From positions 1 to 64,000 of the forward strand of contig NZ_JACJOG010000059.1 of NCBI RefSeq assembly GCF_014695375.1: 64,000 nucleotides of DNA, in the 5' to 3' direction. The position numbers and the translations under genes were made by a program. The DNA is from Coleofasciculus sp. FACHB-T130. GTDB lineage: Bacteria; Cyanobacteriota; Cyanobacteriia; Cyanobacteriales; FACHB-T130. Within the stretch, counting starts at the first letter, position 1, and each line of letters opens with the position of its first letter. The notes below the pieces were generated by a model. That model saw nothing but the letters and a program-made list of their open reading frames with translations, had not been told where the DNA came from and did not search any database. Shown one piece after another: positions 18,275-22,467 of the stretch.

Positions 18275-18787
18275 TTAGTTCACGCTAGCGTGGTTGGCTT
18301 CAGGAGTTGACTGACTCGTCAACTCTGGTGTCGTATTGGTGCTACCTAAATTGAGTTTGACGACGGTACGCCGCGCTTCCGTGACTTTCGGCAGGGTCAA
18401 TGTCAGGATGCCATTCTGGAAGTCAGCCTTGGCTTGGTCGTTCTGAATGGGCACTGGTAGAGGAATCACCCGCTGGAAGCTACCATAGCGGAACTCGGAG
18501 CGGAAGAAGCCTTTTTCTTCGTTCTTCTTCTCAAAGCGATGTTCGCCGCTAATGGCGATCGCTTCACGAGTGATTTGGACATCAATGTCCTTGCCTTCTA
18601 CGCCTGGAATTTCAGCCCGCAGGATCAGATGGTCTTCAGTGTCTTGGAGTTCAATGGCAGGCTTCCAAGTTGTGCTGTACTGGCGAGAAGCTACGCGATC
18701 GCTTCCGGCAAGTTCATCAAACATTTGATCCATTTGACGACGTAGAGTTTCCATTTCTTGGAAGGGTTGCCAACGAATCAGTGCCAT
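18275..18787 (-). CDS. hspA: small heat shock protein Hsp20
   Basis: A 170-residue alpha-crystallin-type chaperone. N-terminal MALIRWQPFQEMETLRRQMD, a crystallin core of roughly residues 45-140 (WKPAIELQDTEDHLILRAEI, FRSEFRYGSFQRVIPLP), and the hallmark GILTLTLPK near 128-136. It binds unfolding proteins as oligomers, often at membranes and thylakoids in cyanobacteria. GGAGG lies about 10 bases before the start. It is a tandem duplicate of the gene at 19044-19577 (very similar throughout), and the promoter/leader is duplicated too. The C-terminal tail is short and Ser/Thr/Asn-rich. Confidence 0.92.
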   Translation of the reverse strand: MALIRWQPFQEMETLRRQMDQMFDELAGSDRVASRQYSTTWKPAIELQDTEDHLILRAEIPGVEGKDIDVQITREAIAISGEHRFEKKNEEKGFFRSEFRYGSFQRVIPLPVPIQNDQAKADFQNGILTLTLPKVTEARRTVVKLNLGSTNTTPELTSQSTPEANHASVN

Positions 18788-19043: not shown

Positions 19044-19577
19044 TTAATCCCAGACGCTAGCCGGTTCAGCACTCTCAGTTGCTTCGGGCTTCTTCGTGTC
19101 AGCAACGGGTGCGTCAGTGACTTCTGGAGCCGCACTGGTGCTATCTGCTAGATTGAGCTTGACTACGCGATCGCGAACTGACTTTACTTTGGGCAGCGTC
19201 AGCATCAGGACACCATCCTTAAATTCAGACTGGACGCGGTCGTTCTCAATCGCAACAGGCAGAGAAATCACTCGCTGAAAGTTTCCGTAGCGGAACTCAG
19301 AACGGACGTAACCGCCTTCTTGTTCTTTCTTTTCGTAGCGGCGTTCGCCTGTAATCACGACCGCTTCACGAGAAATGCGGATATCAAGGTCTTTGGCTTC
19401 GATACCAGGAATTTGTGCCCGCAGAATTAGGCTGTCCTCTGTATCTTGCAGCTCAATCGCAGGCTTCCAGGTGATTGGAGCATCCCGATTAACAGTTGCC
19501 AGTTCGTCAAACATTCGATCCATTTGACGGCGCAGGGTTGCCATTTCTTGAAAAGGTTGCCAACGAATCAGTGTCAT
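19044..19577 (-). CDS. small heat shock protein Hsp20 (tandem paralogue)
   Basis: A 177-residue alpha-crystallin protein from the ATG at 19577 (MTLIRWQPFQEMATLRRQMD), aligned with the start of the 18787 gene. The longer frame from 19637 adds 20 residues that correspond to the paralogue's untranslated leader, so it is rejected. Core domain about 40-140, with GVLMLTLPK as the signature. The C-terminal extension is longer and Ala/Glu/Pro-rich (TDAPVADTKKPEATESAEP). It is the upstream gene of the pair, and each gene has its own terminator and leader, so they are probably two transcripts under parallel heat control. Confidence 0.92.
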   Translation of the reverse strand: MTLIRWQPFQEMATLRRQMDRMFDELATVNRDAPITWKPAIELQDTEDSLILRAQIPGIEAKDLDIRISREAVVITGERRYEKKEQEGGYVRSEFRYGNFQRVISLPVAIENDRVQSEFKDGVLMLTLPKVKSVRDRVVKLNLADSTSAAPEVTDAPVADTKKPEATESAEPASVWD

Positions 19578-19615
19578 AGTCGATTCCCAAGGGTTAAAAC
19601 TTCTCTGTGTCGAAC

Positions 19616-19679
19616 GCTGGAATTGAATTTTGTTCAACTGAGTTAAGCCTTTCGTTCACACTTCTTTATGATGTCGAAG
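19616..19679 (-). promoter_or_regulatory. promoter/leader of second Hsp20 gene
   Basis: Aligned with 18821-18884: shared blocks GACAT-ATAAA, GTG-GAAC, AAA-GCTT and TTGAACAAA-TTCAATTC. No CIRCE element was seen. Confidence 0.6.
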
Positions 19680-19881: not shown

Positions 19882-20130
19882 ATGTCTCATACCGTTAAAA
19901 TCTATGACACCTGCATTGGATGCACCCAATGCGTTCGCGCTTGCCCAACGGACGTCCTAGAGATGGTTCCCTGGGATGGCTGTAAAGCCCAACAGATTGC
20001 CTCATCTCCTCGGACTGAAGATTGTGTAGGTTGCAAGCGGTGCGAAACTGCCTGTCCTACCGACTTTTTGAGCATCCGAGTTTATTTGAGCAATGCTGAA
20101 ACGACTCGCAGCATGGGCTTGGCATACTAA
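19882..20130 (+). CDS. psaC: photosystem I iron-sulfur protein PsaC
   Basis: Carries the two [4Fe-4S] clusters FA and FB on the stromal face of photosystem I and passes electrons to ferredoxin. All eight cysteines are present: C11, C14, C17, C58 and C21, C48, C51, C54. The ATG at 19882 gives [14 protein letters not shown], the known N-terminus; AAAGGAG lies about 11 bases upstream. The length is 82 residues instead of the usual 81: the C-terminal segment reads [15 protein letters not shown] where most cyanobacteria have YLGAETTRS, a one-residue insertion in the loop that contacts PsaA/B and PsaD. Upstream of glmS, each with its own terminator. Confidence 0.98.
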
Positions 20131-20313: not shown

Positions 20314-22467
20314 ATGTGCGGAATCGTTGGCTATATTGGCACTCAAGCGGCGACAGAGATTTTGCTGGCAGGCTTGGAGAAACTGGAGTATCGGGGCTAC
20401 GATTCTGCCGGTATCGCCACAGTCTTGGAAGGTGATATCCATTGCGTGCGGGCAAAGGGCAAACTCTACAACCTGCGCGAAAAGCTACAACGAGAAGTTA
20501 ATCCGGCGACGATTGGCATCGGACACACCCGTTGGGCGACTCACGGCAAGCCAGAAGAATACAACGCCCATCCCCACACGGATACGGCGAAGCGAATCGC
20601 GGTAGTCCAAAACGGGATTATTGAAAATTATCGGGAGTTGCGAGAAGAACTCAAAGCCAAGGGACACGAGTTTCGCTCAGATACCGATACTGAGGTGATT
20701 CCTCACTTAATCGCCGAATTAATGGCACAGCAAGCGCAGCAAGCAGCGGCGACAGCTCAACCGTTTCCGTTTTTAGAGGCGGTGCGGCAGGCGGTGACGA
20801 AAACGGGGACGGATACTGAGTTAATCCCCCAGTTAATCGCCGAACTAATGGCACAGCAAGTACATAACTCGGCTTCTACACCTCAACAGTTTCCGTTTTT
20901 AGAGGCAGTGCGGCAAGCGGTAACGAAGGCGGGAACAGACACGGAGGCAATCCCCCAATTAATGGCTGAAGTGATGACACAGCAGGTACACAACTCAGCT
21001 GTGACAAGTCAGCATTCTTCCTTTTTAGAAGCGGTACGGCAGGCGGTGAATAAACTGGAGGGAGCGTTTGCGATCGCAGTTATCTGTGCTGACTATCCCG
21101 ATGAATTGATTGTGGCACGGCAACAAGCTCCCCTCACCATTGGTTTCGGTCAAGGAGAGTTTTTCTGCGCCTCTGATACTCCGGCCCTGGTTCCCCACAC
21201 TCGTGCCGTCCTGACGCTGGAAAATGGCGAACTGGCAAGAATGACCCCGATTGGCGTTGAGGTGTACAATTTTGCTGGCGATAGGCTAAAGAAAAGTCCC
21301 CGGACTCTGAGTTGGAATCCCGTACAGGTGGAAAAACAGGGATTCAAACACTTTATGCTCAAGGAAATTTACGAGCAACCGGGAGTCGTTCGCGCTTGTT
21401 TAGAAGCTTACCTAAACGCAGACTGGAACGCCGACTCTGGTCAATCTCCCATTAAACTGAATTTACCAGCATCACTCTACGAAAATTTAGAACACATTCA
21501 AATTCTTGCCTGCGGCACCAGTTGGCACGCCGGACTGGTGGGTAAATACCTGCTGGAACAGTTAGCGGGAATTCCCACCATCGTGCAGTATGCCTCTGAG
21601 TTTCGCTATGCACCCGCGCCTCTCACTGCCAATACGCTGACTATTGGCGTGACCCAATCTGGGGAAACAGCGGATACGCTGGCGGCTTTGGCAATGGAAT
21701 CCCAGCGTCGTGCCAGTCAGCCGCCCCAGTTTCAGACGCGATTGCTGGGGATTACCAATCGTCCTGAAAGCACTTTGGGGACGATGGTGCCCCAGATTAT
21801 CGAAACCCACGCCGGAATTGAAATTGGAGTGGCGGCGACTAAAACCTTTGTTGCCCAGCTGATGGCGTTTTACTGTTTGGCACTGGATTTAGCTTATCGG
21901 CGTCAGACGGTATCGGCAATTCGGTTAGAGCAAATTTTAATTGGCTTGCGGCAGTTGCCAGCGCAGATTGAACTGATTTTAGAAAGTCAGGAGCGGTATA
22001 TTGAACATCTGACTCACGATTTTGCCGAAACAAAAGATTTTATCTTTTTAGGACGGGGGATTAATTTCCCGATTGCTTTGGAAGGGGCGCTGAAATTGAA
22101 AGAAATCAGCTATATCCACGCCGAAGGTTATCCCGCTGGAGAGATGAAACACGGCCCGATTGCCCTGTTAGATGCGAAAGTTCCCGTAGTAGCGATCGCC
22201 ATGCCGGGGACTGTCTACGAAAAAGTCCTCTCGAATGCCCAGGAAGCGAAGGCGCGGGATTCTCGCTTGATTGGCGTGACGCCGATGAATGACCCAGAAG
22301 CAGCGGAAACATTTGATGATTTGTTGCCCGTTCCTGCTGTGGAAGAGTTGCTTTCTCCGATCCTCACAGTAATTCCGTTGCAACTGTTGGCTTATCACAT
22401 TGCAGCGCTTCGCGGCTTAGATGTAGATCAGCCTCGGAATTTGGCGAAATCCGTGACAGTTGAATAA
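20314..22467 (+). CDS. glmS: glucosamine-6-phosphate synthase with internal repeat expansion
   Basis: Makes glucosamine-6-phosphate from fructose-6-phosphate and glutamine, the first step to peptidoglycan and LPS amino sugars. The N-terminal glutaminase begins MCGIVGYIGT with Cys2 as nucleophile after Met removal; GHTRWATHGKP is the glutamine-binding segment. Two SIS isomerase domains follow (ACGTSWHAGLVGKYLLEQLA; GRGINFPIALEGALKLKEIS), and the end is DQPRNLAKSVTVE as in the family. The length is 717 rather than about 630: residues 125-250 contain three tandem 42-residue copies of the DTExIPxLIAELMAQQ...FPFLEAVRQAVTK segment, normally present once. The 84 extra residues sit in the glutaminase domain, before KLEGAFAIAVI. 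Confidence 0.97.
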   Translation: MCGIVGYIGTQAATEILLAGLEKLEYRGYDSAGIATVLEGDIHCVRAKGKLYNLREKLQREVNPATIGIGHTRWATHGKPEEYNAHPHTDTAKRIAVVQNGIIENYRELREELKAKGHEFRSDTDTEVIPHLIAELMAQQAQQAAATAQPFPFLEAVRQAVTKTGTDTELIPQLIAELMAQQVHNSASTPQQFPFLEAVRQAVTKAGTDTEAIPQLMAEVMTQQVHNSAVTSQHSSFLEAVRQAVNKLEGAFAIAVICADYPDELIVARQQAPLTIGFGQGEFFCASDTPALVPHTRAVLTLENGELARMTPIGVEVYNFAGDRLKKSPRTLSWNPVQVEKQGFKHFMLKEIYEQPGVVRACLEAYLNADWNADSGQSPIKLNLPASLYENLEHIQILACGTSWHAGLVGKYLLEQLAGIPTIVQYASEFRYAPAPLTANTLTIGVTQSGETADTLAALAMESQRRASQPPQFQTRLLGITNRPESTLGTMVPQIIETHAGIEIGVAATKTFVAQLMAFYCLALDLAYRRQTVSAIRLEQILIGLRQLPAQIELILESQERYIEHLTHDFAETKDFIFLGRGINFPIALEGALKLKEISYIHAEGYPAGEMKHGPIALLDAKVPVVAIAMPGTVYEKVLSNAQEAKARDSRLIGVTPMNDPEAAETFDDLLPVPAVEELLSPILTVIPLQLLAYHIAALRGLDVDQPRNLAKSVTVE
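20683..21063 (+). repeat. three tandem 126-bp repeats inside glmS
   Basis: The GAYACNGAG start of each unit lies at 20686, 20812 and 20938, an exact 126-bp (42-codon) period. Units one and two differ mainly at third positions and in the Gln/Ala/Ser-rich linker. The frame is preserved throughout. Confidence 0.95.

Follow-up and report, generated by a model that had tools for sequence, protein, structure and literature searches.

The glmS gene of Coleofasciculus sp. FACHB-T130 carries one helix-loop-helix of the glutaminase domain three times in tandem, whereas bacterial GlmS (TIGR01135) carries it once. This triple array makes the protein an unusual variant of a known enzyme and is itself a real natural variant, neither a misassembly nor the norm of the family. 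The gene lies at 20314-22467 (+) of the 64,000-nucleotide stretch of contig NZ_JACJOG010000059.1 that we analyzed (the window) and encodes a glutamine--fructose-6-phosphate transaminase (isomerizing) of 717 residues with the N-terminal Cys2 present. The open frame passed the TIGR01135/NF001484 cut-off (818 bits versus 418.05) over its full length, in two stretches (residues 1-148 and about 205-717) split around the array, because the array interrupts the GlmS protein. The family residues M1 C2 G3, HTRWATHG (71-78), N100 G101, T124 D125 E127 and the C-terminal DQPRNLAKSVTVE are all kept; they are invariant across 65 aligned sequences, save S713, which is nearly so. As a whole enzyme, in domain order, Cys2, glutaminase core and isomerase, the protein is like E. 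coli GlmS (2j6h; glutaminase domain 1xff), and the finding leaves the accepted picture of GlmS chemistry as it was.

Tandem Repeats Finder located the repeat at 20686-21049 (period 126, 2.9 copies, 78% matches, 1% indels), and alignment in codons extended it to 3 x 126 = 378 bp at 20686-21063, residues 125-250, with units that align free of gaps. Both analyses confirmed three in-frame 42-residue copies with an exact 126-bp period, as described in an earlier note on this DNA; of the span given there, 20683-21063, the end is correct and the start lies one codon early. The motif quoted with it, DTExIPxLIAELMAQQ...FLEAVRQAVTK, describes copy 1 (20686-20811, +; residues 125-166) and copy 2 (20812-20937, +; residues 167-208) and fails for copy 3 (20938-21063, +; residues 209-250), which reads DTEAIPQLMAEVMTQQ. 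Pairwise comparison gave 101, 87 and 89 identical bases out of 126 (69-80% nucleotide identity), so that the copies differ at 25-39, while the maximum was 56 when copy 2 was codon-shuffled 2000 times and compared with copy 1. Third positions account for the majority of the differences (16/25, 21/39 and 21/37), as had been claimed, with positions 1 and 2 differing too. The G+C content of the array (0.519) is near that of the rest of glmS (0.511) and therefore gives no sign of foreign origin. No RNA element was found over glmS, Rfam giving no match at gathering score within the window. The upstream neighbour of glmS, outside the array, encodes a ferredoxin-like small two-cluster protein (19882-20130, +), which from its sequence we take to be psaC.

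To describe the distribution of the array, we denote the window organism G000 and a second assembly of the same genus (g1) G001; G002 and G005 belong to genus g2, G003 to g3 and G004 to g4. Among 60 genomes (own and 59 relatives), the whole 717 residues were matched in one piece by three, G000, G001 and G004; the GlmS proteins of G001 and G004 are 98% and 84% identical to that of the window, and both carry the 3 x 42 array. All six family genomes examined divide into these three carriers and three with one copy (G002, G005 and G003). The segment from DTE to the G of GAF was compared in 93 distinct complete GlmS proteins, a set defined by a start matching an MCGIVG-like codon pattern and comprising neither incomplete loci, identical copies nor most Prochlorococcus/Synechococcus-type loci, which have one copy in those among the matches listed. 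This segment measures 126 residues in the three carriers and 30-86 in the other 90; self-comparison scored 95, 95 and 87 in the carriers and at most 31 in the rest, and neither a two- nor a four-copy form was present. Three copies as the family norm, the finding that the earlier note had named as a refuter of its reading, was rejected in this comparison with other GlmS proteins, the repeat occurring in only 3/93. The length claim, 717 against about 630 residues, was borne out: the 90 single-copy proteins have 604-675 residues, and the whole set of 93 has a median of 632. A search of 388 sampled genomes of the order with the repeat region (146 residues) gave a match in 330, and among the matches listed only the three carriers were covered at full length; this list was sorted by E-value and covers neither the 58 genomes with no match nor duplicates that have diverged too far. 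In a phylum sample of 386 genomes nine matched at E 1e-9, among the matches listed only G000 at full length, with G001 and G004 absent from the list. Similar arrays elsewhere in cyanobacteria were thus not seen among the matches listed for these two samples.

The repeated unit, a helix-loop-helix belonging to the glutaminase domain, begins at the TDTE motif, in which T124, D125 and E127 are the invariant residues mentioned above and the invariant Asp is presumably the one that binds glutamine in the E. coli enzyme. Normally the unit consists of helix A TDTEVIPHLIAE, a loop that varies in length, and helix B FLEAVRQAVNKLEG running into a core strand. The array therefore does not sit between domains, as the term 'linker' proposed earlier would have it; it sits inside the loop between two glutaminase helices. 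All three copies of G000 and G001 have TDTE, and the third copy of G004 has ETE, not DTE. To assign the native places, we scored each copy against a profile of 52 single-copy segments (52 of the 54 rows 4-57 taken from alignment A1, which holds 65 sequences; A2 holds 51). For helix A, copy 1 fitted best in all three carriers (in G000, -8.1 versus -17.3 and -23.2). For the 14-residue helix B, copy 3 fitted best in all three (G000, -6.6 versus -22.4 and -22.4; G004, -8.7 versus -27.3 and -28.4), a lead owed largely to the three final residues, where the helix connects to the following strand; when the core of 11 residues was scored by itself, copy 3 was still best in G000 and G004, and copy 2 was slightly ahead in G001 (-7.9 versus -8.9). 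Given these scores, helix A of copy 1 (modelled at 128-147) and helix B of copy 3 (modelled at 236-247, running into the LEGAFAIAV strand) most likely hold the native places, neither helix of copy 2 being given one, and B1-A2-B2-A3 would be the addition.

The AlphaFold2 model of the window GlmS has six helices across the array, and the model of the G004 protein has the same six. In the extra part (20755-21018, +; residues 148-235) the predicted helices are B1 152-164, A2 168-183, B2 195-206 and A3 210-228. Mean pLDDT per ten residues was 94-96 at 121-140, 94 at 241-250 and 41-71 at 141-230, and the extra helices are modelled moderately to weakly in both proteins (block means of 41-78), because the insert is carried by only three sequences. 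VIA-align superposed the E. coli glutaminase 1xff_B on the model within residues 2-335 (238/239 residues, 1.1 A); this comparison re-examined Foldseek matches and does not resolve the insert. With respect to helical solenoid repeats such as TPR or HEAT, a Pfam scan (E 0.001) returned SIS and glutamine amidotransferase families only, and the models leave the arrangement of the extra hairpins vague. Together, the models indicate that about 88 residues form extra predicted hairpins within the variable-length loop, and that the enzyme probably folds and works as GlmS with these hairpins outside its core. In Microcoleus-type relatives the same loop holds charged low-complexity inserts and in an acidobacterium (L074) a long insert. 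The inserts in the GlmS of L110, L109, L113 and L022 (Microcoleus sp. LEGE 07076) are rich in lysine and glutamate and resemble short repeats read through as protein.

We consider the following explanation, taken as a whole, probably correct. One glutaminase helix-loop-helix would have been triplicated in frame, within the gene and once, before g1 and g4 (G004) separated; the triplication would have opened in a loop of already varying length and been tolerated for that reason. In the native fold, which would be kept, the original positions would be taken by helix A of copy 1, with its invariant TDTE, and by helix B of copy 3, while B1-A2 and B2-A3 would form two additional hairpins beyond the core, retained as foldable helices by mild purifying selection, harmless and possibly useful. 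Genus g2 would have returned to one copy. We infer that any effect of the added arm, on surface, stability or oligomer contact, is modest at best and not essential.

The relationships within the family bear on this history. A tree of the glmS flanks (first 45 sequences of A1) and a tree of the ribosomal-protein region (22 ORFs, not each named, with G003 21% and G007 24% filled) both gave (G004,(g1,g2)), with support of 98/90 and SH-aLRT of 99 and 100, respectively. g1 was also joined with g2 by rpoB (100/99) and rpoC2 (100/100); the dxr protein (400 residues) leaves the placement of g1 and g2 unsettled, g1 falling with G018 and G046 at 86/86. A clade of g1 and g4 was rejected by rpoB (p 3.6e-4), rpoC2 (1.5e-7) and the ribosomal set (2.2e-5) and was not rejected by the glmS flanks (0.156). 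As to G004, rpoC2 and the ribosomal-region proteins disagree on its place within the family: rpoC2 put it with G003, G018 and G046 and rejected g1+g2+g4 (p 5.9e-4), a grouping not rejected by rpoB (0.099) or the joint set (0.227), whose tree puts G004 with G003. The rpoC2 placement, away from g1 and g2, would require more losses or a transfer. Because most trees join g1 with g2, with G004 outside or elsewhere, the distribution suggests either that the array was gained once and g2 later reverted to a single copy, or that g1 and g4 exchanged the segment. A collapse in g2 leaves no direct trace, because the g2 loop (EFLSH...) is unlike the array loops (ELMAQQ...); the g2 segment has a loop that looks ancestral and bears no clear scar. 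Since g2, placed beside g1 by glmS, rpoB, rpoC2 and the ribosomal proteins, carries a single copy, the array is dispensable for a working GlmS in that genus.

The exchange, in which homologous recombination of part of glmS would have moved the array between g1 and g4 and g2 would never have lost it, is the less probable course, though one with some chance of being right. All three informative amino-acid columns within the array region group g1 with g4, and over the first 120 residues nucleotide identity is 0.83-0.89 between G000 and G004 versus 0.83-0.86 between G000 and G002, the isomerase part mostly favouring G002. The glmS flanks' failure to reject a g1+g4 clade and the placement of G004 elsewhere by rpoC2 agree with such a transfer; the common topology of the flank and ribosomal trees speaks against it, as do the amino-acid quartet patterns outside the array (5, 5 and 4), which give no clear recombination signal.

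Comparison of the copies themselves points to one origin of the array before the split of g1 and g4, because in amino acids every G004 copy is nearer a G000 copy than any sibling copy; copy 2 of G004, for example, is 74% identical to copy 2 of G000 and 60% and 48% to its siblings. In DNA, copy 2 of G004 is nearer its own copy 1 (0.73) than copy 2 of G000 (0.69), synonymous distances (pS) are 0.39-0.49 among the G004 copies versus 0.54-0.73 between orthologous copies of G004 and G000, and the nine-unit tree has little support (copy 3 versus the rest, 67/74 for DNA and 93/90 for protein). These DNA data may reflect gene conversion, or a triplication that took place near the g1/g4 split or later. 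Residues specific to a position (QQVH.SAS in copy 2, KAGT where copies 2 and 3 join) speak against independent triplications in g1 and g4; the weakness of the nine-unit tree and the synonymous distances, which point in the opposite direction, temper this argument.

Selection was assessed by comparing G000 with G001. Residues 148-235, the extra part, have Nd 10/200.8 and Sd 18/63.2, a dN/dS of 0.144 (Fisher p 1.5e-6 versus neutrality), and the isomerase part has a dN/dS of 0.019; nonsynonymous change affects the extra part more often than the rest and flanks of GlmS (odds ratio 14, p 1.9e-6). The extra part is thus under purifying selection, much weaker than that on the rest of the protein. Between G000 and G004 the helices change less than the loop in every unit, by a narrow margin in copy 2. 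All nine copies of the three carriers have 42 residues, while segment length is kept in 32 of 82 single-copy GlmS pairs of like divergence (flank identity 0.85-0.92); since the 82 pairs are not independent, this comparison gives only a hint of a length constraint on the array. The earlier view that the expansion is not fresh is upheld by its presence in three genomes of two genera, the position-wise amino-acid likeness of the copies and the purifying selection. Its reading of the array as kept stands in part: the array is neither fresh nor an assembly error, and the single copy in genus g2 weakens the notion.

A stronger role for the array, as a selected regulatory or docking arm whose hairpins bind a partner or ligand or alter the coupling of glutaminase and isomerase, as proposed for the eukaryotic glutaminase loop, appears possible but unlikely to us. 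The added loop of human GFAT lies, we presume, at another place of the glutaminase domain, after the SPLLIG strand. Retention in two genera, the 42 residues of all nine copies and the dN/dS of the extra part would suit such an arm. So would the human precedent: eukaryotic GFAT (hGFAT1, PMC7000685; hGFAT2, PMC7948480) is likewise a member of the GlmS family with extra glutaminase-domain residues outside the core, and the flexible loops of the human enzyme carry phosphorylation sites, although they are not tandem copies of its own segment, unlike the array of the window. Against this role, one copy suffices in g2, the kept length could be mere recency, and nonsynonymous change between G000 and G001 is concentrated in the extra part relative to the rest.

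The opposite reading, that the array is a neutral passenger, a slippage product tolerated in a permissive loop and kept as harmless, we regard as improbable. It would account for the variation in length of this site among relatives, including the charged low-complexity inserts of L113, L110 and L022 and the long one of L074, for the faster evolution of the extra part than of the rest of GlmS, and for the absence of the array from g2. Amino-acid conservation in the extra part nevertheless exceeds that required to keep a frame open (dN/dS 0.144, p 1.5e-6), and the hydrophobic helix pattern persists, by eye, in all copies, although both may reflect only selection against misfolding. Since each copy opens with the counterpart of the segment that carries TDTE (D125, E127) in single-copy GlmS, with TDTE thrice in G000 and G001, it is conceivable, if very improbable, that GlmS folds in alternative registers in which helix A of copy 1, 2 or 3 docks at the glutamine site in turn; the array would then serve as an inherent switch of conformation, or as a buffer, for glutaminase activity, or would be an incipient domain of helical repeats emerging from the enzyme core. 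An artefact of assembly or annotation is next to impossible and was rejected: no support was found for it (the window and own-genome sequences agree but are one assembly), orthologous arrays stand in two other assemblies, making three from two genera, the copies differ from one another, and they form a single open frame without stops.

The favoured explanation, a triplication with native A1 and B3 and two extra hairpins, has partial parallels. In T4 lysozyme, an engineered helix duplication reportedly keeps one copy in the native place and leaves the other extra; that duplication is engineered and involves a single helix, whereas the array of the window is natural and involves helix pairs. The closest precedent by analogy may be the tandem-repeat mutants in the omega-loop of the PenL beta-lactamase (PMC5101513), where an in-frame duplication in an enzyme likewise pushes extra residues outward and leaves the core intact. 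Those mutants are resistance-related, concern one loop and change the substrate range, whereas the array is a natural triplication of a helical hairpin in two genera and is not known to alter activity. A literature search by title and start of abstract, its coverage lying mostly outside subscription journals, found no internal repeat or duplication in GlmS. The array offers a natural experiment on how an essential enzyme accommodates 84 additional residues duplicated from its own structure, and possibly shows how a hairpin of an enzyme begins to turn into a helical repeat. With carriers (g1, g4) and single-copy relatives (g2, g3) in one family, its cost, benefit and folding register are directly testable.

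Further observations concern GlmS in other genomes and the surroundings of the gene. In the stretches of genome sequence covered, GlmS over the TIGR01135 cut-off was absent from all seven genomes tested of family f28 (best match 116 bits), while 14/14 controls passed. These genomes, of the same order (G032, G055, G073, G089, G105, G121 and G136; loci L216-L222 and L224-L230), have a completeness of 99-100%, and three consist of 2-3 contigs. Their best TIGR01135 matches lie in open frames of 499-521 residues resembling PurF, and their SIS-domain matches only in frames of 199-318 residues, which we take to be MurQ-like in size. NagB passed its cut-off in one of the seven (G089) and in 4/14 controls. 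The genome of the window organism also encodes a stand-alone paralogue of the GlmS isomerase domain (L002, 1498-2646, -; G000:C51:115794-116924) of 382 residues from a GTG start, 63% identical and without the glutaminase part; this paralogue is also present in G001, G002, where it adjoins dxr, and G005, where it is in two pieces on two contigs. Within the window, two adjoining genes on the reverse strand (18275-18787 and 19044-19637) encode similar proteins that by eye have the look of Hsp20-type small heat-shock proteins, and their likeness makes a tandem gene duplication likely.
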